Notes under the pieces: generated by a model
The model's input: the letters and a program-made list of their open reading frames with translations, nothing else
Told to the model about the DNA's origin: nothing
Databases searched by the model: none
Origin: Mariniblastus sp.
Lineage (GTDB): Bacteria; Planctomycetota; Planctomycetia; Pirellulales; Pirellulaceae
Assembly: GCA_023300235.1 (NCBI GenBank)
Contig: JALZWN010000069.1
Location: forward strand, 1-38,466
Direction of reading: 5' to 3'
Length of the DNA stretch: 38,466 nt
Shown: positions 6,001 through 37,558 of the stretch, in pieces
Layout of the letters: every line of letters begins with the position of its first letter
Position numbering within the stretch: position 1 is the first letter of the stretch
Position numbers and translations under genes: made by a program

Positions 6001-7080
6001 CTACCGCTCCAGCGTTTCGCCTTTGACGCGAGTCTCGTTCCAATCCACCGCCATCATCATGCAGTTGATTCCCGAACCGATCCCCAACATCGCGACTTTG
6101 TGACCGGGTTCAATAAACCCAGCTTCGCAAGCTCGTGCCATCGTGATCGGCAGCGCAGCGGCGCCGGTGTTGCCCAACCATTGAAACGTCGAATAATCGA
6201 TCGCCGGATCGATCCCCAACGACTGCAACATCAATTTTTGATGAGCAACCCCAACCTGATGACAGATCGCTCGATCAATCTGCCCGACCTCCCAGCCCGC
6301 AGCCGCCAAAAACGCTGGCATGTTATCAACACCCGTTTTCACGCCTTGATGCATCAGCGTTTCTGAATCCGTTTGCATCAGCGGAGCCATCGACGCTCCC
6401 GCTTGATCGTGATCGCTCTGACACAAATCATGGTAAGCCGTATTGGCATTCACTGCCGCACCGACCAATTTGTTTTTCGTTTTACTGATCGATTCGTGCG
6501 TCAACAAAAACGCACACGACGCCGACCCGATCGTCAAACTGGCAACCGCTGACTTGATGCTTTTTCGAGTCAACGAAGTATCGCTGTTCAGCGTCGCGAT
6601 GGTGTTTTCCACCAGCTGACGTCCGCCTTCGGAACCCACCACCAACGCCGCTTTGATTTGGCCCAGCTCGATCATGTTGGCCGCTTGAGCCACACCGGTC
6701 AAAATCCCAAGACAAGCGTTTGAAACGTCGAAGATAAAACAGTCTCTCGGCAAACCAGCATGATGATGCACCGTACAAGCCGTCGCCGGTTCAAGAAAGT
6801 CGCGGCAAACCGAACCGTGAATCAAACAACCGACTTCATCCGGCGACATCTCCGCAGCCTCCAACGCCAACCGACAACTGTTAATACTCAGCTCGCTCGG
6901 CCGAGTCCCAGGCTGCCAGAACCGACGTTCCTGGATGCCCGTCATCAGTTCCAACCGGCCTTCGGGTAATCGCAACCGCTCGTACAGCGGTTGCAGTTTG
7001 GTCTCGACGTCGGCTGAGCTCCAGATTTCAGCAGGCAACGTGTACCCGAACGATTCGACACAGACTTGAGAATATCGCAT
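6001..7080 (-). CDS. OleA-like thiolase-superfamily enzyme (acyl-CoA head-to-head condensation)
   Basis: A 359-residue KASIII-like enzyme. The catalytic residues are visible: Cys123 (SNACLGILTG), His274 (ICHQVGVAHQ) and Asn304 (WLGNTGAAALP). It resembles OleA rather than FabH. It has the LQPLYERL N-terminal helix, GIQERRFW, the CRDFLEPAT motif whose Glu97 corresponds to the OleA-specific catalytic Glu, and the C-terminal LGIGSGINCMM. OleA joins two fatty acyl-CoAs to a beta-keto acid, the first step to long-chain ketones or olefins, a pathway known in planctomycetes. OleB, OleC and OleD are not in the window, so the product could instead be a ketone or another lipid. The start ATG at 7080 fits the family N-terminus. 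Confidence 0.8.
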   Translation of the reverse strand: MRYSQVCVESFGYTLPAEIWSSADVETKLQPLYERLRLPEGRLELMTGIQERRFWQPGTRPSELSINSCRLALEAAEMSPDEVGCLIHGSVCRDFLEPATACTVHHHAGLPRDCFIFDVSNACLGILTGVAQAANMIELGQIKAALVVGSEGGRQLVENTIATLNSDTSLTRKSIKSAVASLTIGSASCAFLLTHESISKTKNKLVGAAVNANTAYHDLCQSDHDQAGASMAPLMQTDSETLMHQGVKTGVDNMPAFLAAAGWEVGQIDRAICHQVGVAHQKLMLQSLGIDPAIDYSTFQWLGNTGAAALPITMARACEAGFIEPGHKVAMLGIGSGINCMMMAVDWNETRVKGETLER

Positions 7081-8376: not shown

Positions 8377-9411
8377 CTACCAGCGGAACAAGCACGAACC
8401 CCATGTCAGCCCCGCTCCGAACCCCAGCATCATCACAACTTTGCCGGGCTCGATTCGCCCATCGTCGATCGCGTCAGACAAAGCGATCGGAACGCTTGCC
8501 GCAGACGTGTTACCAAATCGATCCAGATTAATCACAAACTTCTCTCGATCGATGCCCATTGAATCGATCGCTGCATCGATGATTCGCACGTTGGCTTGAT
8601 GCGGAACGATCAGATCGATGTCGTCCAGCTGTAGCCCAGATTGATCCAGCATCGTGTTGATAGCGGTTGGAATCAAACGGACCGCCCAACGAAAAACAGT
8701 TCGGCCGTCCATTTTCAAAAAATTCAATCGCTCCGACAAGACATCGTGACTAAGCGGCTGACGCGATCCACCACCGGGCACCAACAAGCAACTCGCCTGA
8801 TCACCGTCCGAACCCAGTTCGTAGGCCAACACACCCGGTTCATTGGCTGCGTCAGATTCACCGGCCGGCCCCAGCAAAACGGCTCCCGCTCCATCACCGA
8901 ACAACGGAAAAGTCTTCACGTCTTGGGGGTCGCAAACGGTTGTCATCGCGTCGGCACCGATCACTAGTGCTCGTTTGCTACAACCGGTTTTGACAAACTG
9001 GCTGGCGGTGATCAACGAATAGACAAACCCGCTACACGCGGCGTTCAAATCAATCGCCGCGGCGTTGCAGCCGAGCGCACTCTGAACTAAGTTCGCAACC
9101 GACGGCGTGAAGTGATCGGGGGTCATCGTCCCAACAACGATCAGATCAATTTCTTCCGGCGCAACATTCGCCGCATCAAGGCACGCCCGTGCCGCCTCGA
9201 TTGCCAAATCGCTGGTTGCTTGTTCAGGGCCGATGTGAAAGCGTTGTTGAATCCCGGTTCGTTTTACGATCCATTCCGGATCACAGCCAAGATCCGCCAG
9301 CGATTCATTGGGCACGCTTTTTTCGCCTACCGCATACTTGCATGCGAGGATCGAGATTCCGCTAATTGTCGTGGTTGTCAATGAACTGTCCGTAGTTTGC
9401 CGAAGCGACAA
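8377..9411 (-). CDS. fabH: 3-oxoacyl-ACP synthase III (KASIII, FabH family)
   Basis: A 344-residue condensing enzyme that joins acetyl-CoA (or another starter) to malonyl-ACP in the first step of fatty acid synthesis. The triad is Cys126 (DLNAACSGFVYS), His271 (IVPHQANVRI) and Asn301 (RFGNTSAASVP), with GDGAGAVLL and the C-terminal GFGAGLTWGSCLFRW. It is about 25 residues longer than E. coli FabH, mainly at the N-terminus. The start appears to be TTG at 9411 because a TGA lies immediately upstream in frame; an in-frame TTG at 9381 is an alternative. No strong Shine-Dalgarno is seen. The usual rpmF-plsX neighbours are absent, so this may be a pathway-specific paralogue serving a specialised lipid, perhaps with the nearby OleA-like enzyme. 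Confidence 0.9.
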   Translation of the reverse strand: MSLRQTTDSSLTTTTISGISILACKYAVGEKSVPNESLADLGCDPEWIVKRTGIQQRFHIGPEQATSDLAIEAARACLDAANVAPEEIDLIVVGTMTPDHFTPSVANLVQSALGCNAAAIDLNAACSGFVYSLITASQFVKTGCSKRALVIGADAMTTVCDPQDVKTFPLFGDGAGAVLLGPAGESDAANEPGVLAYELGSDGDQASCLLVPGGGSRQPLSHDVLSERLNFLKMDGRTVFRWAVRLIPTAINTMLDQSGLQLDDIDLIVPHQANVRIIDAAIDSMGIDREKFVINLDRFGNTSAASVPIALSDAIDDGRIEPGKVVMMLGFGAGLTWGSCLFRW

Positions 9412-15123: not shown

Positions 15124-16197
15124 CTATTTGTTCGTAGCAATTTGTTTTCGCAAACGCATGTCGTATTCGATCAACTTAGAATCGTCGTCAGGAAAAACAA
15201 ACCCGTCAAGCGATCTCCCGTTGGACTTCGTTGACTCCGCCATAATCTGTCCCAACAGAGTCCTCTGTCGTGGGCTGATATAATCCAAAACCCGGTCTCG
15301 ATTGGCACTACGAATGAAACTGTTGACCTTAGTGGATTGAAACTTCGTCAACGGCAAACTTTTTACCCCCGCAGTCGTTCGCAGCTGATACTTTTGATCT
15401 GACAGCTTGGCTTTTCGTGAACCGCCAGGAAACTCAACCGCTCGACCTCCCACCAGGGACTCTGCGGTTTTTTGTTGCGAATCCGAATGCGTAAACACCT
15501 TCGTCGCACACTTAAACGTCTGAGCGGTTTTGACGATCTTTGAATATTGAACGATCGACGGGTCGTAAGTCAGCTGCACCACTTCCAATCCACCCGCCCA
15601 ACCCGCGGTAGTACTCATCACACCATCAATCGCGCCCAGTCGCGCTTCTCCGGTCCAATAGCAGTGCATCGCAAAAGTCGCTTTCTCCAGCCTTTTGTCA
15701 TCGATCGCCAATCCGCTCAGATACGACGGCACCTCGCGTTTGGCGGCTTTCAATGCAGCAGCCATTCGAGCGGCCATCGGGCCGATTTTCCACACGCCGG
15801 ATTTTCTTCCGATTAAATCGTTACCGTTGGCGTCCAAAAGACGCACGATCGGATTGTTCCAAGACGGTTCGTTGAACTGCTTCAGCAACGCTGCGTCACT
15901 GGATTTGTTGTTGTAGACCAAAACCGGAACAAACAGATCTTCGATTGCTTCGACCATCAACGGGTGAGATAGGACAGACCGTCCATAAGTTTGGCAAGTA
16001 CTTCAGCCAGGGACCTCTTGAAACTGAACGAACAGCGGTTTGCCGGTCTTCATCGCAAGCGCTTTGGCAGCTTCCAGATCTCGGTTCCACGTAACTTGCC
16101 CGACCTCAACTTGCCCCTGACCAAGCACTGGTTCACTTTGAAGAATGATGGCCCCCAGCATGGCAGCTGCTACGGCCAACCCGATCATTAATTTCAT
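15124..16197 (-). CDS. Selenoprotein: exported thioredoxin-like (USTC) fused to MsrA-like domain
   Basis: A 357-residue protein if the in-frame TGA at 16003-16005 is read as selenocysteine 65. The ATG at 16197, with AGGA upstream, opens a signal peptide (LAVAAAMLGAIILQ...VLGQ). Residues 36-63 (VTWNRDLEAAKALAMKTGKPLFVQFQ) are a thioredoxin-like beta-alpha-beta, and the TGA falls in EVPG-U-STC, a U-x-x-C redox motif at the place of CxxC. The same frame continues YGRSVLSHP and IEDLFVPVLVYN, as expected for the family. From about 175 a MsrA-like segment follows: HCYWTGEARLGAIDGV (Cys179 at the catalytic CFW position), AGWAGG, then EVVQLTYDP and KVFTHSDSQQ. The PTY...TGHAE loop of MsrA is shortened. 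The role is probably periplasmic thiol or methionine-sulfoxide repair, with the Sec domain perhaps recycling the MsrA Cys (inference). The true stop is TAG at 15124-15126. Confidence 0.8.
15972..15984 (-). promoter_or_regulatory. Candidate bacterial SECIS hairpin for the thioredoxin/MsrA selenoprotein
   Basis: In the mRNA, bases 22-34 counted from the U of UGA read GGAC-GGUCU-GUCC, a 4-bp stem closing a GGUCU loop. GGUCU is also the loop sequence of the E. coli fdhF SECIS recognised by SelB (established knowledge). The loop starts at base 26, within the distance accepted for bacterial SECIS elements. The stem is short and no further pairing below it is obvious. Confidence 0.6.
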
Positions 16198-16343: not shown

Positions 16344-17870
16344 CTATACATTCACAGTGTGGCAAGCGTTCACAACACACCTTAATGCGGCGTCTCGCTG
16401 GATGATATCGAACCAAGTTTCGCTTTCTTCGTCTTGGCTAAACGTGTTCAGCGCAGACGCAAACGTCATTAAAGTCATTTGATTCTGAATACAAAACTCC
16501 AGAATCGGCATCCGACTTTCTGCATAATCATTTGTGCCCAATTCCATAAAGAAACAGGACACCAATTCCCGAGTTTCATCCCACAACAACTCATCAACGC
16601 CTTCAACCCCGACCTCTCGCTGAGCCAGATTCTGCAGGCCCTCTTCAAACACCGTCATCGCCATTGAGTACGCGGAAAAGCAATAGTCAAGTCCTTCCAG
16701 CGTACCAATAGGATCCTCCGAAATCTCTTTGGCAACGGGCATCCAAATCGCACGAGACGTTTCGGGAAGCGTATTCCGCGCCCATGGAATCGCCGCCATC
16801 CAACCGCTTGCCGACACACGCATTTGTTCCCACTGCTCGGAGGCAAACATTAGGATCTCAACCGAATCCGCGGTCCAAGATTGATCGTTCTCAGAAATCT
16901 CTTGCCAGCAAATTTCAGTATGCGCGATGTACTGACTACCTTGTTGCCAAACGGTGTAGTTCATCGATTCGGCCAATAGACTCAACCAATCACCTTGGTA
17001 GCCACTGAACTCAAGTGAATGAGGTTGCAAGCGATTCATGTCGTTGACGACGACCCAAGGACGATGGTGACCGATGGCCTCCCAACGAAGCTTAAAAAAA
17101 CAAGCCAACGATTGATAACCCTGTACGTTCGCCAAGTAGTCCCTCACGATTTTACAGTCCGCCAATCGATAGTTATGATCAAACTCGTACCGAAGTTGAA
17201 TCATCGCCGAGCGAAATGTTGCTGCGGAACTCAACGCCTGCAACAACCAAGCGATTCGTTTTAGATCGCCTTCGCTGTAGCCCAACTCGGTTTCATCGCT
17301 CGACGAATCGACGGACAATCCTGCCTCTGCCTCTGGATAAAACCGACCGGCGAAGTATTCCAGCAACCTTGCTTTGGCAATCTGCTCTGATCCTTGTGAC
17401 GGGTCGACATTTTGCAATTCAGGGATTGCTGGCCGTAAACCATCAGCCCTCAACACTTCGAAAAACATCTCCACGGGATCCGTTTTAATCAACTTCGAAG
17501 AACGACTGGTACGTCCACCCTCCCAAACAGAACAGCCTTCGACCTCTTCACCTACAACTGACTTTTGATTCACTTCAGCCGATTGGTTTTCAGCGAACGA
17601 GGACGGCCCAACCCAATCGCTAGTTTCTGATGAAGCTTCGACGTCTTCATCGTGATCGTCGTTGTCCTGTTGCCAGCTTAACCAGTCCAGCACCGACTCG
17701 TAAGCTTCACGAATCTTCTGAAACTCTACGGGGCAGCGGTCGGGCTTGTACGTCCGAATCAGCTTAAAGTACTTACGTTTGGCAGCACGAGCATCGTCGG
17801 AGCGTTCAACGCCGAGCAACTCAAACGGATCCTTCGGCCAAGATTTAAAGTCTTCTGGCAAACCAGTCAC
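16344..17870 (-). CDS. J-domain protein with a KPD instead of HPD motif
   Basis: A 508-residue protein whose N-terminus is a J-domain (about 12-72): DPFELLGVERSDDARAAKRKYFKLIRTYKPDR, then VEFQKIREAYESV. The invariant His of HPD, which triggers Hsp70 ATPase activity, is Lys here (YKPDR). A Ser/Asp/Glu-rich linker (about 73-130) leads to a large helical domain without recognised family. It overlaps the upstream gene by 4 bases and ends an operon headed by an HscC-type Hsp70. In E. coli HscC works with dedicated J-proteins, so this is its likely partner. Whether the Lys variant still stimulates the chaperone is open. Confidence 0.8.
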   Translation of the reverse strand: MTGLPEDFKSWPKDPFELLGVERSDDARAAKRKYFKLIRTYKPDRCPVEFQKIREAYESVLDWLSWQQDNDDHDEDVEASSETSDWVGPSSFAENQSAEVNQKSVVGEEVEGCSVWEGGRTSRSSKLIKTDPVEMFFEVLRADGLRPAIPELQNVDPSQGSEQIAKARLLEYFAGRFYPEAEAGLSVDSSSDETELGYSEGDLKRIAWLLQALSSAATFRSAMIQLRYEFDHNYRLADCKIVRDYLANVQGYQSLACFFKLRWEAIGHHRPWVVVNDMNRLQPHSLEFSGYQGDWLSLLAESMNYTVWQQGSQYIAHTEICWQEISENDQSWTADSVEILMFASEQWEQMRVSASGWMAAIPWARNTLPETSRAIWMPVAKEISEDPIGTLEGLDYCFSAYSMAMTVFEEGLQNLAQREVGVEGVDELLWDETRELVSCFFMELGTNDYAESRMPILEFCIQNQMTLMTFASALNTFSQDEESETWFDIIQRDAALRCVVNACHTVNV

Positions 17871-18871
17871 TGTCCGCCCCCCGACCCATCGTTCTGTTTA
17901 TCAACGACCTGATTCGGCGACGAAGATATTGCTAGATCTTGGGAACGATTCTCGCTTGGAGCGACGGCATTAACCACTTCTTTGCCGCTGGCTTTGTTGG
18001 CCTGGTCCTCTGCATTGAAATCTAGACTGTTTGAAACGGCAGCCATCACACAAACGACCACCAACCCTAAGAAAAAAGCGAACCCGACCGCAACTTTAGA
18101 ACCGCCACTCTCAATCGAATTTTCTTCATAAAGCGTTTGATGGACGGAAGCGGAACGACCAGAATCGACCGGCGGCGGAAGACGGCGTTGCTCCAGCTCG
18201 CCGCACTCTCGCGTCAACATGAACAAGAACGGTTGGTGAAACCGTTCCTGCGGCACCTGAGCTGTTCGCCGAACGCTGTAACGTGCCGCGGTTAGATCCG
18301 AGACCGAAAACATTCCTTTCAGCTCTTCCAACCACTGCTTACGAACCCGACAACGCTGGCTCTGCCGAACCGTAGAAATGTGAAACAGTGCCTGAATTAT
18401 TTTCTTAGCCGCCAAGCCATGACGCGAAACTCGCCTGTCGACCGCTTGTCCGCTGCACCAGATCGTTTCCGCGTAGTCATGGACTTCGACCGAGCACCCT
18501 CGCAAATCCAATTCGGTCAGCCGCTGCTTCAGCGCTCCCAGCAAATCAGAATCGTCCATCACTCCAAGTTGGCTTGCAAACCACGCGACGACTTCGTCGA
18601 TCTGTAGACAAACTTCTTGATCGCGATACTTTTGGAAACCACGAACCTCAACCACTGACTTACCTAAAACCATTTCAACGGCTTGCGGCTTATCGCTACC
18701 AACAAAAAAGTCATTACTCTTTAGCCGTTCAAAGAAAGCCGCGACCGCTCGACGTTGACCATCTCCACGGACACCATCGGCAACCTGCGTATCAAGCTCC
18801 AACACCTCGCTGGCCCAAGCAAACGGATCGGCTCGATCATCACTTGTTAAATTGTCATTTGGCTGTTCCAC
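17867..18871 (-). CDS. Hypothetical single-span protein of the HscC operon
   Basis: A 334-residue protein of unknown function. The N-terminal 255 residues look cytoplasmic and mixed helical/strand (DPFAWASEVLELDTQV, AVAAFFERLKSNDFF, IDEVVAWFASQLGVM). A transmembrane helix at about 260-282 (KVAVGFAFFLGLVVVCVMAAVS) is followed by a short polar tail ending in Gly-Ser-Gly repeats. It starts 12 bases after the Hsp70 stop codon and overlaps the J-protein start, so the three are translationally linked. It could anchor the chaperone system at the membrane, which is inference from the operon only. Confidence 0.75.
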   Translation of the reverse strand: MEQPNDNLTSDDRADPFAWASEVLELDTQVADGVRGDGQRRAVAAFFERLKSNDFFVGSDKPQAVEMVLGKSVVEVRGFQKYRDQEVCLQIDEVVAWFASQLGVMDDSDLLGALKQRLTELDLRGCSVEVHDYAETIWCSGQAVDRRVSRHGLAAKKIIQALFHISTVRQSQRCRVRKQWLEELKGMFSVSDLTAARYSVRRTAQVPQERFHQPFLFMLTRECGELEQRRLPPPVDSGRSASVHQTLYEENSIESGGSKVAVGFAFFLGLVVVCVMAAVSNSLDFNAEDQANKASGKEVVNAVAPSENRSQDLAISSSPNQVVDKQNDGSGGGQ

Positions 18872-18883
18872 ATTTCCTCCGCT

Positions 18884-20629
18884 TTACCTTGCAACACGGT
18901 CATCGGCATCATCATCGTCGGGATCATGGACAGACAGGAACGTCTCTAGCTGACTTCGAACCGAAGCAATCTCATTCGGATCCTGCGAATCAAGCGCCGC
19001 TTCGAACACGTCCAAGTAAACGTCTAACTGATTGCGAAGCATCGTTGGCAATTCCTGAAACAGACGTTCAGCCCGCTTGACCATAAACCGGTTCGCGTTT
19101 TTTTCACGCGGATGGGTTTTCACCTGCTCCATCGCAGTCAGCGAACTCTGCAATTCCTTTTGGCTCAAATGGCCTGCATGTTTGGTGATGACCATGCGTT
19201 TTTTTTGTTGTGTTTCGACGATCGTCGTTTCTACTTCCAACACACCGTTACTATCGTAAGTAAAACGGACTTCAATCTCCTGACCGGCTGGCCCACGAGG
19301 AACACCTTTAACCTTCAGCTCGCCCAACAGCAAATTATCTTTGACCATTCGACCTTCGCCTTGGTACACGTTCAACGCGACATCGACTTGATTGGGGGAA
19401 ATGGTAACCAGCGAATGAGACCGGGAAGTGGGAATCACGGTATTACGATTGATGATCGGCAGGAAATATCCGCTGCGAGTTTCTTGGCCGAGTTCTTTTG
19501 AGATTTCGACGCCCAAAGTAAACGGAGCCACATCCACCACGACCATGTCTTCGAGTCCGGCATCATCGTTGATCAAACCCGCTTGGATCGTGGCGCCCAG
19601 TGCGACGACTTCATCCGGATTGATCTTGCCAGTCGGGCATTTGCCCAAAAACTCGTTCGCCATCCCATAGATCAATGGCATCCGAGTCGCTCCGCCAACC
19701 AGAATCACTTGATTTAAATCTTGTTGTTTGATTTTGGCATCACCCATCGCCCGCCGTACCGGAATCCCAATGCGTTCTAGCAATGGCTTGCAGGACTCCA
19801 ACAGCATTTTTCGATCGACGGTGAATTTTTCTCCATCGGCGTTTAGTCTGCCTTCTGCGTCAGGCAACAAGATTTCGGTTGATTCGTTTTTCGACAGAGC
19901 ACGTTTGGCTTTTTCGCATTGCTGAATTAAACGAGCAACCATCATCGGCGACTTGGTTTCTGCGTGTTCAAACATGATCGAACGTTGGGACAAGATCGAC
20001 CGAGCCAGCGAACGAGTAAAATCTTCGCCACCCAAAATCGCTTCACCTGCGGACGCGCGAACTTCGACGGCCCCTTCGAAAAAATCGACAATCGAAATAT
20101 CAAACGTGCCGCCACCCAAATCAAACACCGCAATCGTTTTCTCGGCGTCGGTTTCGTGGACACCATACGCCAACGCTGCCGCAGTCGGTTCGTTAACAAT
20201 CCGTTCGACCTTAAACCCCGCCAACTTGCCAGCTTCGATGGTTGCTTGCCGTTGTTGGTTATTAAAGTAAGCCGGGACGGTGATTACCGCGCGATCGACT
20301 TCCGTTTTTAAATAAGCTTCCGCATCTGCCTTAAGCGACTTAAGAATAAAGCTCGACAGCTGCACCGCAGAAAAACGATGCTTACCGACTTCGACAGACC
20401 AGTCCGTTCCCATCTGGCGTTTGAAACATGCGGCACATTGATTCGGATTCAGCACTTGATGTTCCTTGGCAGCGCTGCCGACCAATATCTCACCCGACTC
20501 ATCGACGCCCACCACCGACTCGGTTAAATACACACCTACCGAACTCGATATCAAAACCGGTTTACCATCCACCATCACGCCAACTGCCGAGTTGGTCGTT
20601 CCTAAATCGATTCCGACAATCGCAGACAT
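18884..20629 (-). CDS. hscC: Hsp70-family chaperone, HscC type
   Basis: A 581-residue Hsp70. The ATPase signatures are complete: IVGIDLGTTNSAVGV (phosphate 1, residues 4-18), AVFDLGGGTFDISIVDFF (phosphate 2) and VILVGGATRMPLIYGM (adenosine), plus RIVNEPTAAALAYG. The substrate-binding domain (DVAPFTLGVE onward, about 370-490) is followed by a shortened helical lid and a tail rich in Asp (DDDDADDR) in place of the EEVD of DnaK. The length, below 600 residues, and the lack of grpE/dnaJ neighbours favour HscC over DnaK. It heads a three-gene minus-strand operon with a membrane protein and a J-domain protein. The start ATG at 20629 gives the canonical N-terminus. Confidence 0.9.
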   Translation of the reverse strand: MSAIVGIDLGTTNSAVGVMVDGKPVLISSSVGVYLTESVVGVDESGEILVGSAAKEHQVLNPNQCAACFKRQMGTDWSVEVGKHRFSAVQLSSFILKSLKADAEAYLKTEVDRAVITVPAYFNNQQRQATIEAGKLAGFKVERIVNEPTAAALAYGVHETDAEKTIAVFDLGGGTFDISIVDFFEGAVEVRASAGEAILGGEDFTRSLARSILSQRSIMFEHAETKSPMMVARLIQQCEKAKRALSKNESTEILLPDAEGRLNADGEKFTVDRKMLLESCKPLLERIGIPVRRAMGDAKIKQQDLNQVILVGGATRMPLIYGMANEFLGKCPTGKINPDEVVALGATIQAGLINDDAGLEDMVVVDVAPFTLGVEISKELGQETRSGYFLPIINRNTVIPTSRSHSLVTISPNQVDVALNVYQGEGRMVKDNLLLGELKVKGVPRGPAGQEIEVRFTYDSNGVLEVETTIVETQQKKRMVITKHAGHLSQKELQSSLTAMEQVKTHPREKNANRFMVKRAERLFQELPTMLRNQLDVYLDVFEAALDSQDPNEIASVRSQLETFLSVHDPDDDDADDRVAR

Positions 20630-21250
20630 GTTTTTTGCTTAATTTGAATCCATGGAAGTGCTCAATATTGAACGATTCTCACCGCGACATTATTGTGAAT
20701 TTATTTATCGTACTTGAATAAAGAGTTGAGCCGCTGGGCGTTTGCCCCCAACGGCTCAACAAATCACAACCTCGGCGTAGTCGAAACGCTCGTCTCTACA
20801 GTATGACAACCTCCACGCCCGAATACAAACATTCTCTTTTTTTTATTTCGACGGCTAATTGCCGGCTTGGATTCATAAAAAACCTAGAGCCAAGCGAAAA
20901 ACGCACCATCGCCCAATCCATTCGCGACCTCGACAGCCCAAAAACTTGCTTGTTTGTTTGCACCATAATTCGACTTCGAGCGTTTTTTTGGCAAAGAGAT
21001 AGTTACCCAAAGAGATATAGATAGTTACGCAAAAAATAATTTGCGTCAGTTTTACCGACACCACAGGTATATCTGCCGCGGCGATACATTATCATGTTTC
21101 GACCTGTCCGAACGAATCCGATCGGCTTGACTTGCTTACGGATATCGATCTTTGAAACAAAAAACCGTTTTACTGATTTGATTGCGATGCGAATCATCTT
21201 TCGGTTTCCAAAATCAACTTCAAGCACTCGATAGATTCCGGAGCTCTTAT
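20630..21250. other. Divergent promoter region
   Basis: About 620 bases between the divergently transcribed hscC operon and the glycosidase-DUF6786 gene. It must contain both promoters, though no convincing boxes were identified. Short open frames here have no support. A strong hairpin at 20725-20760 is listed separately. Confidence 0.5.
20725..20760 (-). terminator. Strong two-part hairpin upstream of hscC
   Basis: GTTGAGCCG (20725-20733) pairs exactly with CGGCTCAAC (20752-20760), and an inner GGGC/GCCC stem (with loop GTTT) closes the apex. On the minus strand it is followed by TCTTTATTC, a weak T-tract. It lies about 95 bases upstream of the hscC start, so it could be a terminator of a short upstream transcript, a 5' leader attenuator, or a protein/RNA structure site. 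Confidence 0.5.
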
Positions 21251-23479
21251 ATGCACAAACTTTTTTTCGTTGCCGCAATTGCCCTGATGGCCGTTACCGC
21301 TCAAGCTCAAGAAGCGACAACCCTTGAAACGGTTTCCGTAGCCCACTCGGTCCTCGAAGGCATCGGCGCCCAAGACGGCGTGATGCGTCGCGACCCGAGT
21401 GACGTTATTAAAGTCGGCGACTTATATTACGTGTGGTATTCCAAAGGAACGGTTAGCCCCGGTTACGACGCAACGGTTTGGTACGCCACGTCAAACGACG
21501 GACGCAATTGGATCGAACAAGGCATGTCGCTTGACAAAGGCGTTGCTGGCACTTGGGAAGGCGCTAGTGTTTTCACGCCGAACATCATGGTTGCCGAAGG
21601 CAAGTACTGGTTGTTTTACACGGGCACTTCAAAGGACATGCACAAAAAGCCGTTCAATCCTGATTCAAAAATCGGCATTGCAGTTTCCGATTCTCCTAAC
21701 GGACCATGGGAACGGCTCGCCTCAAATCCCGCTCTAAGCAACAGCTCCAACCCGGAAGATTTTGATAGCCACCTCGTTGACGACGCTTGTTTGTTAATCC
21801 GAGACGGTAAGTATTATTTCTATTACAAAGGTCGCCAGCTAGGCAAAGGCCCAAGCGAAACTCAAATGGGTTTGGCAATCGCGGACAAACCGCAAGGCCC
21901 CTACGTGCGTCATGAAAACAGTCCCGTCATTCCTGGCAACCACGAAGTGCTCGTCTGGCCGCAAGGAACCGGCGTTGCGGCGATGATCGGATCCACGGGA
22001 CCGAAATCCATCACTAATTCTGTTTTGTACGCTGACGACGGAATCAACTTTAAAAAGACGCACAAAGTAGTCAAAGGCCCTTGGGCGGGTGGAGCTTACC
22101 GACCAGAAGCGTTCACACAATCAGGAAATGCCAAGCTTCCCGAATGGGGCGTTGAAATCGCTCGACCAAAAGGAAGACGCAAAGGAAAGTTACCATGCAT
22201 TGGTCGTTTTGATGTGAAAACAATGGCACCGAAATCCAGCGCCGTCGAAACCACTTCGCCCATGATGACAGTTTCAACTCAACCCACTACACACACCGAA
22301 TCGGCCAAATCCGCAGCCGTCAAGTTTTCGGATGACCTCACGTTCATGCGAAAGCACACGCAGATCGTGACCCTCAAAGATGGCGATGCCGCCGTCGCGA
22401 TCGCGCCGGCGTATCAAGGCCGAGTGATGACCAGCACGTTTGATGCGGCAGCGGGCCCAAGCTTCGGCTGGATCAATCGCCCGGTTATCGAAAAAGGTTT
22501 TCTCTCCGACGAAGACAAACAAGGCAAGCTTGAAGAACACATCTACATCTTCGGCGGCGAAGAACGATTTTGGCTCGGCCCAGAAGGCGGGCAATTCGCA
22601 ATCTTTTTCAAGCCCGGTGCAAAGTTTGAATTCTCGGATTGGGCCACGCCACCAGCAATCGATACCGAAGCTTACAAACTGATCGAATCCAACGACACGT
22701 CCGCCAAGTTCACCCATTCAACCAAGCTGGTAAATTATTCAGGTACCAAATTCAACGTCGGCATCGAACGAACCGTAAAATTGATCGGTGCAGCCGACGC
22801 CGGCAAGTTGCTAAACGTTGAACTACCAACCGGCTTGAAGATGGTGGCTTACGAAACCGACAATCAAATCACCAACGCCGGCGAAAACGCTTGGACGACA
22901 GAAACCGGTTTGTTGTCGATCTGGATGCTTGGCATGTACAACCCAGCTCCAAAAACGACCGTCGTAATCCCGTTCAAAAAAGGCGACGATGCAACGCTCG
23001 GCGTGAAAGTGACCGACGATTACTTTGGTAAAGTCCCGGCGGACTACCTGAAGGTCGAACAAGAGCGCCTGTTCTTCAAAGGCGATGGCACTCGACGCGG
23101 AAAGATCGGCATCAACGACAAACGATCCAAAGGCATTGCCGGCAGCTACGACGCTGACGGAAAAGTCCTAAACATCGTGACTTATAACGTGCAAGAATCA
23201 GCCAACGGGTTTGTCAATTCCGCCTGGAAGTTACAAGACAAACCCTATGCAGGTGATGTGATCAATTCCTACAACGACGGGTCACCCGAACCAGGCAAGG
23301 CCCCGCTCGGCCCGTTCTACGAACTGGAAACCTCATCACCCGCCGCAGCCCTCAAGCCCGGCGAAACGATGAAGCACATCCAACGCACGTTCCACATCCA
23401 AGGCCCCGAAGCACTCCTCGATCCACTGGCAAGAAAATTGCTTGGTGCAAGCTTGGATGAGATCAAGGGAGCGTTTTAG
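21251..23479 (+). CDS. Secreted GH43/GH117-like propeller fused to DUF6786-like domain
   Basis: A 742-residue exported two-domain protein. The ATG at 21251 opens a signal peptide (KLFFVAAIALMAVTAQAQE); an earlier in-frame start would put 23 residues before it. Domain one (about 35-320) has five-bladed propeller strands: RDPSDVIKVGDLYYVWYSKG, FTPNIMVAEGKYWLFYTGTS, HLVDDACLLIRDGKYYFYYKG and AYRPEAFTQ, similar to GH43 and GH117. A Thr/Ser-rich linker (about 322-355) leads to domain two (to the C-terminus) with AYQGRVMTSTFD, GWINRPVI, IYIFGGEERFWLGPEGGQ and HIQRTFHI, matching the DUF6786 pattern. DUF6786 enzymes are uncharacterised, possibly galactose-mutarotase-like beta-sandwiches. The fusion suggests both act on the same sugar. 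Confidence 0.8.
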   Translation: MHKLFFVAAIALMAVTAQAQEATTLETVSVAHSVLEGIGAQDGVMRRDPSDVIKVGDLYYVWYSKGTVSPGYDATVWYATSNDGRNWIEQGMSLDKGVAGTWEGASVFTPNIMVAEGKYWLFYTGTSKDMHKKPFNPDSKIGIAVSDSPNGPWERLASNPALSNSSNPEDFDSHLVDDACLLIRDGKYYFYYKGRQLGKGPSETQMGLAIADKPQGPYVRHENSPVIPGNHEVLVWPQGTGVAAMIGSTGPKSITNSVLYADDGINFKKTHKVVKGPWAGGAYRPEAFTQSGNAKLPEWGVEIARPKGRRKGKLPCIGRFDVKTMAPKSSAVETTSPMMTVSTQPTTHTESAKSAAVKFSDDLTFMRKHTQIVTLKDGDAAVAIAPAYQGRVMTSTFDAAAGPSFGWINRPVIEKGFLSDEDKQGKLEEHIYIFGGEERFWLGPEGGQFAIFFKPGAKFEFSDWATPPAIDTEAYKLIESNDTSAKFTHSTKLVNYSGTKFNVGIERTVKLIGAADAGKLLNVELPTGLKMVAYETDNQITNAGENAWTTETGLLSIWMLGMYNPAPKTTVVIPFKKGDDATLGVKVTDDYFGKVPADYLKVEQERLFFKGDGTRRGKIGINDKRSKGIAGSYDADGKVLNIVTYNVQESANGFVNSAWKLQDKPYAGDVINSYNDGSPEPGKAPLGPFYELETSSPAAALKPGETMKHIQRTFHIQGPEALLDPLARKLLGASLDEIKGAF

Positions 23480-32760: not shown

Positions 32761-33063
32761 TTCTGCGTGAAGCCCACGCGGATTCATGCTGTTGATCAAA
32801 CACCGCGATTCGATCGCGAAACAGAACCACCGACAACACTCATGGTGCCCGGTCGGCATCGGTGATGCCCAAGTCACTCCGGAAGCATACTCAAACTCGG
32901 GTCTATCAGTCACCCCATCGCGTTCTCATCAAACCTCGCAGCTTCCGCGACCCATAGTCGTTATTTCTGGCTGCAAGTTCGTCGCGTACGCTAATACTCT
33001 TTGGCGAATGCTGTATACTTTCGATCTCACCGACAGCCAACGTTTGAATACAACCAGTTAGCC
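32761..33063. other. Region upstream of the TRAP operon
   Basis: About 300 bases with no supported gene. TATACT at 33014-33019 is a possible -10 box 45 bases before the dctP start; a matching -35 is not obvious. Confidence 0.35.
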
Positions 33064-34083
33064 ATGAACAAAACTCTCTCAACCTTTGTCGCGGGATTGC
33101 TGATCGGAGCAGTGCTTGCGACCGGCGGCTTCGCTCTTTTTCTTCGTTCGCAAAACGCCAGCGGAAACAACTCTTCACAAACCGTCCTCAAACTTGGCCA
33201 TGGCCTTGAGACCGCTCATCCGATCCACAAGTCGGTCGAGCACATGAAGATGCGGCTAGAGGAACTTTCTGGGGGGTCGGTCACGATCGACATCTACCCT
33301 AGCGGAGTCGTAGGAAACGAAGTTGCAAGTATCGAACAGCTTCAAAACGGTTCGCTGGCCATGACCAGCCAATCCGTCGCCGCGATGGAAAACTTCATCC
33401 CCTCAATGGCGACCTTTAGTTTGCCTTATGTGTTCCATGACTCCGATCACTTCTGGAAGGTGCTCGATGGAGACGTCGGACAGAAGCTCATGCAGAGCGG
33501 CGAAAAGAAGTTTTTGCATGGGCTGTGTTATTTTGATAGTGGCAGCCGAAATTTCTACACTATCAATAAACCGATCCGGACGCCGGACGATTTGAAAGGC
33601 ATGAACATCCGCGTGATGAACAGCCCGACGGCAATCAACATGATTAAAGCAATGGGTGGAAACCCGACGCCCATTCCGTTCAGCGAACTATTCTCCGCTC
33701 TCGCACAGGGGGCCGTTGACGGTGCTGAAAACAATCCTGCCAGCTTCTACAACAAACAACATTACAAAGTCTGCAAACACTTCTCGAAGGATGGTCATAC
33801 TCGCGTGCCCGACATGCTGATCATGAGCTCCAAGGTTTGGGACCGGCTTTCTTCCCAAGAACAAAGCTGGGTCCAACAAGCGGCCCAAGAATGTTCCGCT
33901 TTCCAACGGGACCTGTGGAAAGAATACACCGAGACGTCACTCAAAGCGGTCGAAGCCGAAGGCACAACAATTTACGATGTTGATACCGCACTGTTTGCTG
34001 AAAAAGTAAAACCGATGCTCGACGCGATCGACAATGCTGATGTCCAATCGCTGCTTAAAAAGATCGGCGAGGTGCGAGAATGA
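33064..34083 (+). CDS. dctP: TRAP transporter solute-binding protein (DctP family)
   Basis: A 339-residue periplasmic solute receptor. The N-terminal helix (TFVAGLLIGAVLATGGFALFL) is a signal peptide or anchor. The family core includes LKLGHGLETAHPIHKSVEHM, VTIDIYPSGVVGNE, YVFHDSDHFWKVLDG, GMNIRVMNSPTAINMIKAMGG (with the Arg that pairs with the substrate carboxylate) and AQGAVDGAENNP. The DGAENNP form and sequence type resemble receptors for uronates or other sugar acids; the ligand is inferred. The stop TGA overlaps the dctQ start (ATGA), so the three TRAP genes form one operon. The ATG at 33064 is chosen because it begins the signal sequence. Confidence 0.92.
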   Translation: MNKTLSTFVAGLLIGAVLATGGFALFLRSQNASGNNSSQTVLKLGHGLETAHPIHKSVEHMKMRLEELSGGSVTIDIYPSGVVGNEVASIEQLQNGSLAMTSQSVAAMENFIPSMATFSLPYVFHDSDHFWKVLDGDVGQKLMQSGEKKFLHGLCYFDSGSRNFYTINKPIRTPDDLKGMNIRVMNSPTAINMIKAMGGNPTPIPFSELFSALAQGAVDGAENNPASFYNKQHYKVCKHFSKDGHTRVPDMLIMSSKVWDRLSSQEQSWVQQAAQECSAFQRDLWKEYTETSLKAVEAEGTTIYDVDTALFAEKVKPMLDAIDNADVQSLLKKIGEVRE

Positions 34084-34619
34084 AGTCCGGATTAATCGCA
34101 TTTAACAAATTAATGTCAATGCTGCTGAACGCGGCGTTAATCACCGCCGTCGGCCTCCTTGTATTGGACGTCATCTGGGGTGTGTTCACTCGCTACGCCC
34201 TAGGCGCACAGGCCTCTTGGACGGAGGAACTCGCACGATTTTTATTGATCTGGGTCACTTTGCTGGGCGGTGCGGCGGCCTTCGCTACCAAAGGACATCT
34301 CGGGGTCGATTACTTCGTTGAAAAGCTACATCCCGAAACGCGGCGAATCGTAGCGATATTTTCGCATCTGGTCGTGCTATTTTTTGCTCTGGCGATTTTT
34401 GTATACGGCGGTTGGTGCACCGTCTCGGACACCCTCGCGATGGAGCAATCCACGCCCGCGCTTCAATGGCAGATGGGCCACGTTTACCTAGCGATCCCGA
34501 TCGCTGGCTTCTTTATGGTTTTGTTCACGCTACAAAACTTGCTTGAAACGATCAGCCCGAGCGACCCCAAAAACGAATCGGTCAGTGGCGTGGCAGAACT
34601 CAAAGAAGGAGCCAAGTAA
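34080..34619 (+). CDS. dctQ: TRAP transporter small permease (DctQ family)
   Basis: A 179-residue membrane protein with four transmembrane helices. The family signatures WTEELARFLLIWVTLLGGAAAF and HLGVDYF (about 47-80) are clear. It partners the large permease DctM in a sodium-driven importer. It overlaps dctP by 4 bases and dctM by 1 base. Confidence 0.92.
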   Translation: MKSGLIAFNKLMSMLLNAALITAVGLLVLDVIWGVFTRYALGAQASWTEELARFLLIWVTLLGGAAAFATKGHLGVDYFVEKLHPETRRIVAIFSHLVVLFFALAIFVYGGWCTVSDTLAMEQSTPALQWQMGHVYLAIPIAGFFMVLFTLQNLLETISPSDPKNESVSGVAELKEGAK

Positions 34620-35977
34620 TGGGCACGACCGCACTGATTCTGATTGTTGTCTTTGTTCTGCTGTTGGTAATGGAGGTTCCAATCGCGGTTTCGATCGCGA
34701 TGGCAACGTTCGTTGCGATCCTGGCCGAAGGCCCTGACCCAACACTGGTCGTTGCCCAGACGATGGCAAATGGCGTCAACAAATTTGTTTTGCTGGCGAT
34801 TCCATTTTTCATCCTGTCGGGGCACTTGATGGGACGCGGCGGAATGGCAACCCGCTTAATTGATTTTGCCTCAACCCTGGTTGGTTTTTTCCCCGGCGGA
34901 TTGGCTTACGTGAACACGCTTACCTGCATGCTGTTCGGTTCAATCTCTGGTTCGGCTGCCGCCGCGGTTTCATCCGTTGGCGGTTTCATGATCCCCGAGA
35001 TGAACCGCAAAGGCTACGATCGCGATTTCAATGTCGCTGTGACCACGACAGCGGCTACCACTGGACTGCTGATTCCGCCCAGTAACATCATGATCATTTA
35101 CTCAGTCGCCGCGGGGTCAGTTTCAATATCTGCGATGTTCATGGCGGGCATTCTTCCGGGAGTCGTTTCAGGGTTGTTCATCATGTTGGTTTGCGGGGGA
35201 TTTGCTTACGCCAAAAGCTACCCCCGAGAACCACGTGCTTCATTTGACGAGATCATGGCAGCTTTCCGACGGTCCTTCCTAAGCCTATTTTTGATCGTGA
35301 TCGTGATCGGCGGAATTCTTGCTGGCATTTTCACCGCAACCGAGGCGGCCGCAATTGCGGTTGTCTACGCGTTTATATTGGCGGTCGCAGTCTACCGTGA
35401 AGTCAAACTGTCCGAGATTCCGGATTTGCTGCTGCAAACCGGACTCACCACCGCCATCGTAATGATCCTGATCGGCGCAAGCTCAGGGCTCAGCTGGATC
35501 ATGACGATGGCCAATATCCCTCAAACTGTTAGCGCAGCTTTGCTGGGGCTTTCCGACAATCCAATTTTAATCCTGCTAACAATCAACCTACTGCTGCTGT
35601 GCGTGGGAACGTTCATGGACATGGCGCCAGCGGTCCTGATCTTCACGCCGATCTTCTTGCCGGTCGTCATGGCGTTGGGGATGCACGAAGTTCATTTTGG
35701 CATCATGATGATCGCGAACCTGTGCATCGGGCTCTGTACACCGCCGGTAGGGACTTGCCTGTTCATCGGCTGCGGCGTCGGCAAAACCACGATCGCCAGC
35801 GTGACCAAAACGATGTTGCCGTTTTTCTTTTCGATGGTCTGCGCCCTGATGATTATCACTTATGTGCCTGCGATCTCGCTTTGGCTGCCCGTGCAAACTC
35901 AGCAGCTCAAACAAGAAGAAGTCGACGCCGCTTATTTTATGAACTCAACGATCGAACAAGAAGCCGCGACCAAGTAA
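34619..35977 (+). CDS. dctM: TRAP transporter large permease (DctM family)
   Basis: A 452-residue membrane protein with about 12 hydrophobic segments. Family motifs: FILSGHLMGRGGMATRLIDFA, GSISGSAAAAVSSVGGFMIPEM, then TTAATTGLLIPPSNIMIIYS, GIFTATEAAAIAVVYAF and LCIGLCTPPVGTCLFIGCGV. It forms the transport channel. The sialate O-acetylesterase-like gene begins 57 bases downstream and may be co-transcribed. Confidence 0.93.
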   Translation: MGTTALILIVVFVLLLVMEVPIAVSIAMATFVAILAEGPDPTLVVAQTMANGVNKFVLLAIPFFILSGHLMGRGGMATRLIDFASTLVGFFPGGLAYVNTLTCMLFGSISGSAAAAVSSVGGFMIPEMNRKGYDRDFNVAVTTTAATTGLLIPPSNIMIIYSVAAGSVSISAMFMAGILPGVVSGLFIMLVCGGFAYAKSYPREPRASFDEIMAAFRRSFLSLFLIVIVIGGILAGIFTATEAAAIAVVYAFILAVAVYREVKLSEIPDLLLQTGLTTAIVMILIGASSGLSWIMTMANIPQTVSAALLGLSDNPILILLTINLLLLCVGTFMDMAPAVLIFTPIFLPVVMALGMHEVHFGIMMIANLCIGLCTPPVGTCLFIGCGVGKTTIASVTKTMLPFFFSMVCALMIITYVPAISLWLPVQTQQLKQEEVDAAYFMNSTIEQEAATK

Positions 35978-36034
35978 CTCGCGTTCGACAAAATCAAAAA
36001 TTCAGAAAAAAATCTCACCCGTTAGAACGAACCA

Positions 36035-37558
36035 ATGAATATCATCCACGCCGCTTTCTTCACAATCATCGGGTCCCTAATAACGCTCAGTGCCCAGGAC
36101 GCCGTGGCAGACTTAACCTTGGCGTCTCCATTCACCGACAACGCCGTCTTGCAACGCGGCGCATCGGTGCCAGTGTGGGGAACTGCGGACGCCGCATCTA
36201 CGGTCACGGTTAAGTTTGGTGACCAAACCAAATCTGCCGTCGCCGACAAAGATGGTAAGTGGATGCTAAAGCTAGATCCCCTGACCGCCAATTTTGAACC
36301 GCAAACGCTCGACGTTTCTGACGGCAGCAACAAGTTGTCTTGCTCAAACATCCTGGTCGGCGAAGTCTGGATTTGCTCGGGCCAATCCAACATGCAACAG
36401 GCCGTTGGCGTAGACCCCAACCTTAGGCCTTTGATTCCAAAAGCAAAAAACCTTCGGACCTTCGCTGTCAAACGAACGGTCGCGATGACCGAACAAGACC
36501 GCTTAGAGGGCAGTTGGGTCGAAGGGCATCCAAACAGCGCGGTTGCGTTTTCCTTTGCTTACTTTTTGGAACAAGCTGGCGATGTCCCCGTCGGGATCAT
36601 CCTCTCGTGCTGGGGCAGTTCGTCACTGGAAGCCTGGATGCCGCGCGACATGACCGAGACCGTTCCGCACTTCAAAACGATGATGGACGAATTTGACGCA
36701 GACACTGCACGGCAAGAAACCATCAAATCGATCTTGGCTTCGCAACCGTGGAGCAAAAAAAATGACATCTATCTGCGCCGCCAGACAAACATCCTTTACA
36801 ACGCCATGATCCACCCGTTGATCCCCTTCGCCTGTCGCGGCGTTGTTTGGTACCAAGGCGAGCGGAACACGCAGTCGATGTTCGGGATGGTGGAAGCCCC
36901 TTGGTTCTCTCGTAACTCTGGTATGCTCAAGTACGGCGAAACGCTCAAGGCTTGGATCCAGCGATACCGTAAAGCGTGGAAGTCTGACGACATGCAATTC
37001 ATGATCGTGATGTTACCTGGCTATTACAAGCCAATTAAAACTGGCCCAAAAAAAGGAGCCCAACATCCCGCCGCGCACTCTTGGGCTTGGATGCGAGAGT
37101 CGCAACTCAAAGCACTTGAGTTGCCAAACACTTTCGTCGTCAACACCATCGACCTAGGCAATGAGACGAACATTCACCCAAAAGACAAAAAGCCGATCGG
37201 CCAGCGACTGGCTCGCTTTGCTGCCGGAAACTTCCTTAAGCAGGACGTCCAAGACCACGGCCCGATGATGAAATCGACTCAAATCCAAGACAATCAAATC
37301 GTGGTCCACTTTGATCACGCCGACGGCCTCAAGACGACCGACGGAAAAGCACCGACGGGCTTTTGGTTAGCGGATGATTCCAAGAACTGGGCGCAGGCCA
37401 ACGCCCAGATCAGCGACGGTACGGTCGTACTCAGTTCGGACGAAATCAAAAAACCGCTCTACGTCCGTTACGCCTTCGCCGGCAAGCCGAGCGTAAACCT
37501 CGTCAACATCGCCGACCTTCCGGCCTATCCATTCCGCTCCGACAAGTTCGAGCCGTAA
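36035..37558 (+). CDS. Sialate O-acetylesterase-like SGNH hydrolase
   Basis: A 507-residue exported esterase. A signal peptide (HAAFFTIIGSLITLSAQDAVA) is followed by a beta-sandwich (SPFTDNAVLQRGASVPVWGTA, about 30-105) and an SGNH hydrolase domain with the nucleophile in VGEVWICSGQSNM (Ser118). Other family blocks are PVGIILSCWGSSSLEAWMP, CRGVVWYQGERNTQ and a C-terminal IDLGNETNIHPKDKKPIGQR with the Asp/His-containing block (NIHP). This matches the sialate O-acetylesterase (SASA/DUF303) family, which in environmental planctomycetes often removes acetyl groups from polysaccharides rather than sialic acid. Directly following a TRAP importer, it may release acetylated sugar acids for uptake. 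Confidence 0.9.
   Translation: MNIIHAAFFTIIGSLITLSAQDAVADLTLASPFTDNAVLQRGASVPVWGTADAASTVTVKFGDQTKSAVADKDGKWMLKLDPLTANFEPQTLDVSDGSNKLSCSNILVGEVWICSGQSNMQQAVGVDPNLRPLIPKAKNLRTFAVKRTVAMTEQDRLEGSWVEGHPNSAVAFSFAYFLEQAGDVPVGIILSCWGSSSLEAWMPRDMTETVPHFKTMMDEFDADTARQETIKSILASQPWSKKNDIYLRRQTNILYNAMIHPLIPFACRGVVWYQGERNTQSMFGMVEAPWFSRNSGMLKYGETLKAWIQRYRKAWKSDDMQFMIVMLPGYYKPIKTGPKKGAQHPAAHSWAWMRESQLKALELPNTFVVNTIDLGNETNIHPKDKKPIGQRLARFAAGNFLKQDVQDHGPMMKSTQIQDNQIVVHFDHADGLKTTDGKAPTGFWLADDSKNWAQANAQISDGTVVLSSDEIKKPLYVRYAFAGKPSVNLVNIADLPAYPFRSDKFEP

Follow-up and report, generated by a model that had tools for sequence, protein, structure and literature searches.

A planctomycete selenoprotein joining a thioredoxin-like UxxC domain to an MsrA-derived domain

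Locus, family and the TGA at codon 65

The window analyzed here (the whole of a 38,466-nucleotide stretch of Mariniblastus sp. DNA, contig JALZWN010000069.1 of assembly GCA_023300235.1) carries a selenoprotein gene on its minus strand, the frame of which, running from 16197 to 15124, is open apart from one TGA at 16003–16005 (codon 65). With this TGA read as selenocysteine (Sec), the product comprises 357 residues followed by a TAA stop, 292 of them lying downstream of the TGA. The protein is laid out as a signal-peptide-like start, a thioredoxin (Trx)-like domain, a linker and a second half derived from MsrA, an enzyme that repairs methionine sulfoxide; its motifs include EVPG-U-STC, HCYWTGEARLGAIDGV (which holds C179), EVVQLTYDP, HC179YW, LE205VV and KC230AT, and its sole Cys/Sec residues are U65, C68, C179 and C230. 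The features of the locus are as follows.

15124–16197, minus strand: coding sequence of the selenoprotein, 357 amino acids plus TAA, with its ATG at 16195–16197 (frame reading; full-length NF041383 match).
16120–16197, minus strand: signal-peptide-like N-terminus, residues 1–26, MKLMIGLAVAAAMLGAIILQSEPVLG (by the look of the sequence, not predictor output).
15829–16092, minus strand: Trx-like domain, residues 36–123, DsbD-gamma/DsbH-like (Pfam Thioredoxin_7, Foldseek, VIA).
16003–16005, minus strand: in-frame TGA, predicted Sec65, first position of U-S-T-C (Sec or Cys in 33 of 33 sequences).
15994–15996, minus strand: Cys68, second position of UxxC, invariant (33 of 33 sequences).
15972–15984, minus strand: candidate selenocysteine insertion sequence (SECIS) hairpin GGAC-GGUCU-GUCC, weak, nucleotides 22–34 counted from the U of UGA.
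15226–15693, minus strand: MsrA-derived domain, residues 169–324, including a putative C-terminal helical part (PMSR, profile-to-PDB comparison, VIA, hhalign).
15661–15663, minus strand: Cys179, aligned to Cys51 of E. coli MsrA and Sec16 of Clostridium oremlandii MsrA; 14 of 33 sequences have TGA here.
15583–15585, minus strand: Glu205, invariant; counterpart of the proton-donating Glu94 of E. coli MsrA and Glu55 of the C. oremlandii enzyme.
15508–15510, minus strand: Cys230, present in 29 of 33 sequences at the position of an MsrA active-site Tyr (hhalign, MAFFT); candidate resolving Cys.

The protein belongs over its full length to a known but unexplained selenoprotein family and does not define a new one. 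NCBIfam NF041383 (“VPGUxxT family thioredoxin-like (seleno)protein, type 2”) matches residues 31–314 over profile positions 1–286 of 287 at 358.1 bits (cut-off 275), and the VPG[U/C]xx[C] motif is present as EVPGUSTC (residues 61–68). A 2026 review lists NF041383 as the former hypothetical protein OS_HP5, with a VPGU motif, one Sec and a Trx-like fold, predicted only and with no function (PMC13188914); an earlier review lists OS_HP5 and gives no motif (PMC9312934). An earlier note on this DNA had known of no described enzyme with such a layout, a claim that has to be amended in that the family is catalogued as a hypothetical selenoprotein, and that stands in that neither the MsrA-derived half nor the second Sec site of NF041383 is mentioned in the 2026 review. 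We found no publication on the second Sec of NF041383. What goes beyond the catalogue, and is apparently unreported, is the MsrA-derived half with its rebuilt active site and a second Sec in relatives with a hairpin of its own. NF041382 (VPGUxxT type 1) shares the VPGU Trx domain at the N-terminus (141 bits, residues 28–157 of the window protein) but differs in its C-terminal half (profile positions 190–348), which matches a separate planctomycete family of proteins of ~265 amino acids (for example, in G022, G068 and G086), present in many copies per genome in some planctomycetes.

Pfam Thioredoxin_7 spans the TGA (residues 36–123, E 3.7e-12), and the first half of an AlphaFold model (built from four sequences; mean predicted local distance difference test (pLDDT) 64, predicted template modeling score (pTM) 0.55) matches DsbD-gamma/DsbH-like thioredoxins by Foldseek and VIA. 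The protein is probably exported, to judge from the appearance of its N-terminus; on inspection, relatives likewise begin with signal peptides or lipobox-like sequences. The Trx domain carries a WNNP motif with Pro at or near the usual cis-Pro position; in L024, L026, L027, L039, L041 and L043 this Pro is replaced by Gln (WNYQ or WNFQ), which is unusual among thioredoxin folds.

A profile search of 392 genomes of the phylum returned 32 genomes (the window's included) with a match above the family cut-off, and three further relatives came from named contigs, two of these being from Saprospiraceae, another phylum. The comparison set, to which the counts given here refer, comprises 33 in-frame sequences including that of the window. 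Across it, column 65 reads TGA in 23 and TGC/TGT in 10, with nothing else, and all in-frame TGAs of the matched stretches are confined to columns 65 and 179, both otherwise Cys. The window's own genome (94.8% complete) encodes selA, selB and selD above curated cut-offs, together with a tRNA-Sec above the Rfam gathering score, the same tRNA being called Sec (anticodon TCA) by ARAGORN. Genomes with full or partial family matches have selA above cut-off in 33 of 39 cases, versus 239 of 392 phylum-wide (Fisher p 0.0015; the genomes are non-independent). At the level of sequence comparison, UGA65 is established as a Sec codon within a Trx-like UxxC site.

The same column rules out two other ways of taking the codon: as a chance or pseudogene mark, which the Sec/Cys alternation excludes, and as Trp under an altered code, homologues carrying Cys there instead of Trp.

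The earlier note had described a selenoprotein with a signal peptide and a single in-frame TGA in place of the first Cys of a CxxC, and had suggested looking for Cys at this codon in homologues and for selA, selB, selD and a Sec tRNA in the genome. Reading of the frame bears out the single TGA, which falls at a Sec/Cys column in U-S-T-C; both searches gave a positive outcome (Sec 23, Cys 10; complete machinery), in keeping with a selenoprotein, and the signal-like N-terminus agrees with predicted export. None of the outcomes that the note had named as refuting its reading was encountered. The long frame that it saw beyond the TGA is likewise real, its length being 292 residues and not the 290 that it gave.

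The hairpin that follows TGA65 in the window has 4 base pairs, a GGUCU loop and a free energy of −4.9 kcal/mol, and is of a type seen after ~4% of ordinary codons. A comparable GGUCU-containing loop occurs in E. coli fdhF. No energetically stable SECIS was found at Sec65 of the window (z +0.9), and an Rfam scan of the window gave no match. Under a stricter criterion, a GU-loop hairpin follows the Trx site in 16 of the 23 Sec sequences and 1 of the 10 Cys sequences, against 4.8% of ordinary window codons.

The MsrA-derived half and a second selenocysteine in relatives

Pfam PMSR (PF01625) matches residues 172–203 over profile positions 1–32 only (E 2.2e-6; 28.4 bits against a gathering score of 23.7), and TIGR00401 (MsrA) scores 21.1 bits, below its curated cut-off of 108.1. 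Comparison of a profile of 24 family C-termini with the PDB gave top matches that are essentially all MsrA, the best being C. oremlandii MsrA (CoMsrA; E 3e-10). By VIA, CoMsrA (4lwj/4lwm) aligns to residues 143–298 of the model (window residues 169–324; Z 11.0, 144–147 residues), with a root-mean-square deviation of 3.5 over 144 residues for 4lwj, and several other MsrAs reach a Z of about 10 against the predicted structure. The fold alignment covers CoMsrA 6–210, with a weak TRVN-like sequence match to planctomycete Sec-MsrAs in the putative C-terminal helical part. These alignments establish the C-terminal half as a whole MsrA-derived domain, as far as comparison of sequences and of a predicted fold can do so. 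The fusion of a Trx-like to an MsrA-like domain with an altered site, as the earlier note had it, is upheld by the Thioredoxin_7, PMSR and profile-to-PDB matches, and alignments confirm that the PTY/TGH loop it reported missing is absent.

Within this domain, Cys179 sits in HCYWT in place of the MsrA sequence GCFWG, the flanking Gly being changed and the Trp after Cys kept. The catalytic Cys/Sec179 and Glu205 are invariant across the family. The window protein has lost both the PTY and the RQGND loop, and three alignments (hhalign twice, MAFFT) place Cys230 at the Tyr of TQYRS, which is Tyr90 in C. oremlandii. The active-site Tyr residues of PTY and TQYRS are those that we take to be Tyr82 and Tyr134 of E. 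coli MsrA. In the C. oremlandii enzyme, Tyr47, Glu55 and Tyr90 make up the region of the pocket into which the sulfoxide oxygen is received (PMC4333827); of these three residues the Glu is kept, one Tyr is lost with the PTY loop, and the other has given way to a Cys that 29 of 33 sequences share. The only conserved chalcogen positions of the family are 65, 68, 179 and 230. The window's genome also encodes an ordinary MsrA and an MsrAB fusion.

Codon 179, the MsrA catalytic position, is itself TGA in 14 of the 33 sequences (GMTUFWVGE and similar). In all 14, the TGA is followed by a 7-base-pair hairpin (nucleotides 16–22 with 27–33) with 95.9% of its cells paired; four of the seven pairs are changed on both sides, and 0 of 500 shuffles match the covariation score or the percentage paired. 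The corresponding region of the 19 Cys179 homologues is 40% paired. By the GU-loop criterion a hairpin is present in 14 of 14 Sec sequences versus 0 of 19 Cys sequences (4.8% of ordinary window codons), and the Leu codon in the loop is TTG in 5 of 5 Sec members versus 1 of 14 Cys members (exact probability about 0.0005). The 48 nucleotides following Cys179 of the window fold with a z of −2.7, but share few pairs with the hairpin of the relatives; the window protein, as its codons read, is the one-Sec form (Sec65, Cys179).

Written as the Trx site followed by the MsrA site (U, Sec; C, Cys), the combinations are UU 14, UC 9, CC 10 and CU 0 (Fisher p 0.0014), such that Sec at the MsrA site never occurs without Sec at the Trx site.

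Stand-alone Sec-MsrAs of the C. oremlandii type (GUFWGPD), with a helical-type C-terminal extension, are found in planctomycetes (L076, L077, L098, L099, L106, L117 and L119), and L071 has a different, shorter Sec-MsrA (AAGUFWGVE) without the extension. In the stand-alone planctomycete Sec-MsrAs of the C. oremlandii type, the TGA is followed by a hairpin resembling that at codon 179, the AGUU/GGUU loop and its spacing from the TGA being shared. Given this common hairpin, the MsrA-like domain of the family may be descended from a Sec-MsrA.

A proposed relay and its alternatives

The reading that we favor, with a probability of roughly 0.55, is that the gene encodes an exported oxidoreductase, a selenoprotein whose single chain holds two redox sites, and that its UxxC domain would re-reduce the MsrA-like site in cis. 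Outside the cytoplasm, Cys179 (Sec179 in relatives), aided by Glu205 as acid, would attack an oxidized sulfur substrate, for which a sulfoxide such as methionine S-sulfoxide is the likeliest candidate. The attack would turn residue 179 into a sulfenic (selenenic) acid, which Cys230, lying in the same pocket, would then resolve to a disulfide (selenylsulfide), and Sec65–Cys68 of the fused Trx domain would reduce this 179–230 bond within the chain, to be recharged in its turn via a membrane thiol pathway (DsbD/CcdA-type protein). Overall, the protein would be the cis, exported counterpart of the C. oremlandii pair of Sec-glutaredoxin and Sec-MsrA. The confinement of MsrA-site Sec to sequences that also have Trx-site Sec supports such a relay, and the earlier note's proposal, in which the Sec domain may reduce Cys179 of its own chain, gains support from relatives that have Sec at both sites and from the lack of any in which only the MsrA site has it. 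Across the flanks of 20 relatives, the window and L051–L053, no conserved neighbor gene was found, apart from the family's own gene and neighbors shared by pairs of closely related members, and a partner reductase thus does not accompany the protein. A DsbD_TM protein is encoded in the window's genome.

Several points weigh against this reading. The candidate SECIS of the window itself is weak; the AlphaFold model, of mediocre quality (pLDDT 64, pTM 0.55), gives no sign that the two sites meet; Cys230 is missing in 4 of 33 sequences; and nothing connects the DsbD_TM protein to the window protein. Moreover, 13 of the 14 UU sequences lie on one side of a well-supported tree branch, with L035 separate, which amounts to at least two changes, and the counts of site combinations overstate independence. 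Methionine sulfoxide is a plausible substrate, made uncertain by the loss of the binding Tyr residues and by the presence of an ordinary MsrA and an MsrAB in the genome; with Tyr82 and Tyr134 gone, it may not be the substrate. The earlier note's self-contained methionine sulfoxide repair enzyme is at most plausible on this score, as two of the three sulfoxide-binding residues (Tyr82 and Tyr134, E. coli numbering) are absent and the Glu alone is kept. For the family at large we put forward, tentatively and at somewhat less than even odds, a two-selenium relay enzyme in many planctomycetes: an exported chain with Sec at both the Trx and the MsrA site, each with its SECIS, one of which would reduce the substrate and the other regenerate it, the Tyr-to-Cys change and the lost loops suggesting that its substrate is not ordinary methionine sulfoxide.

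The protein could instead be a genuine exported methionine-S-sulfoxide reductase, retaining full MsrA activity despite the lost loops and using its Trx domain as a built-in reductant. The invariant catalytic Cys/Sec and Glu, the Trp after Cys and the retained MsrA fold would all suit such an enzyme, and the use of Sec as the catalytic residue, by 14 relatives and by the similar stand-alone planctomycete Sec-MsrAs, argues for sulfoxide-type chemistry. We regard this as possible while inclining against it, given that neither the PTY loop (Tyr82/Tyr47) nor the residue at the Tyr134/Tyr90 position is retained intact, that the score lies far under the curated MsrA cut-off (21 versus 108 bits), and that an ordinary MsrA and an MsrAB fusion are encoded in the genome as well. 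Deletion of the substrate loops and replacement of the active-site Tyr by a conserved Cys (29 of 33) would fit an MsrA fold reused for thiol (selenol)-disulfide exchange, with C179–C230 passing electrons between Sec65–Cys68 and oxidized envelope proteins, peroxides or another non-sulfoxide substrate; the Trx domain is, moreover, closest to the disulfide-exchange proteins DsbD-gamma and DsbH. This too seems unlikely, for Glu205, the counterpart of Glu55 in C. oremlandii MsrA (PMC4479559), is invariant with no obvious need for it in a plain disulfide shuttle, and Cys230 is absent from 4 relatives.

The predicted structure, which gives no sign of contact between the two sites, would also accommodate two independent activities, the Trx-like domain serving other envelope proteins and the MsrA-like site being recycled in trans, and the VPGU Trx domain is indeed joined to a different C-terminal domain in NF041382. 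We consider such a division of labor quite doubtful, because MsrA-site Sec occurs only together with Trx-site Sec, domain order and chalcogen positions are kept together in 33 sequences, and no partner gene lies nearby. That the TGA might be a true stop, a sequencing error or the mark of a pseudogene could be argued from the weak downstream hairpin in the window and from a selenocysteine that is predicted only; given that 22 other genomes share the TGA at this codon and the remainder have Cys, that the Sec machinery is present and that a conserved frame runs on for 292 codons, we judge it extremely improbable.

Recycling of the known Sec-MsrA is by a separate glutaredoxin, whereas here a reductase-like domain is fused to a repair-type domain. 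The natural CC, UC and UU versions make the question of why Sec should be used twice testable within one polypeptide, and an unexplained selenoprotein family gains a concrete biochemical hypothesis. The one-Sec listing suggests that annotation pipelines may take the second TGA for a stop; in that case, many of these proteins would be truncated in databases.

Surroundings and comparison with known systems

The selenoprotein gene lies 146 base pairs after a run of minus-strand genes (16344–20629) comprising an Hsp70 gene (18884–20629), an unassigned gene and a DnaJ-like gene, tightly packed and directly upstream on the same strand, the DnaJ match being just below the Pfam cut-off. As no neighbor is conserved in relatives, we draw no function from this Hsp70/DnaJ-like context. 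Elsewhere in the window are two different ketoacyl-ACP synthase III-like genes near each other (6001–7080 and 8377–9411, minus strand), a GH43/GH32-like domain fused to DUF6786 (21182–23479, plus strand), and a complete TRAP transporter (DctP, DctQ, DctM) followed by a sialic-acid-type acetylesterase (33001–37558, plus strand).

CoMsrA (PDB 4lwj, 4lwm and 4u66) offers both the closest solved fold and the best profile match for the C-terminal half; it has Sec at the same catalytic position as the relatives, and a helical C-terminal extension. Work by Kim in 2011 on the “tandem use of selenocysteine” reportedly concerned a Sec-containing glutaredoxin for the C. oremlandii Sec-MsrA (cited in PMC4479559). 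CoMsrA is recycled by glutaredoxin rather than by Trx (PMC4333827; PMC4479559). It is a stand-alone protein with no Cys besides Sec16, whereas the window protein has Cys230 in its MsrA-derived domain, a fused reductase-like domain and, by the look of its signal sequence, an exported location; the Tyr47 and Tyr90 positions are lost, with Cys at the latter.

As in the window protein, MsrA is combined with a further redox domain in MsrAB and Trx-MsrAB (PilB) fusions, and PilB, an envelope protein, begins with a Trx-like domain. The window protein differs from both in lacking an MsrB domain, in the Trx subfamily employed (Thioredoxin_7), in the use of Sec for Cys and in its truncated MsrA domain. 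DsbD gamma, DsbH and other Thioredoxin_7 proteins, finally, share the fold of the N-terminal domain and its CxxC-type motif, from which the window protein departs in that the first Cys is replaced by predicted Sec and the domain is fused to one derived from MsrA.
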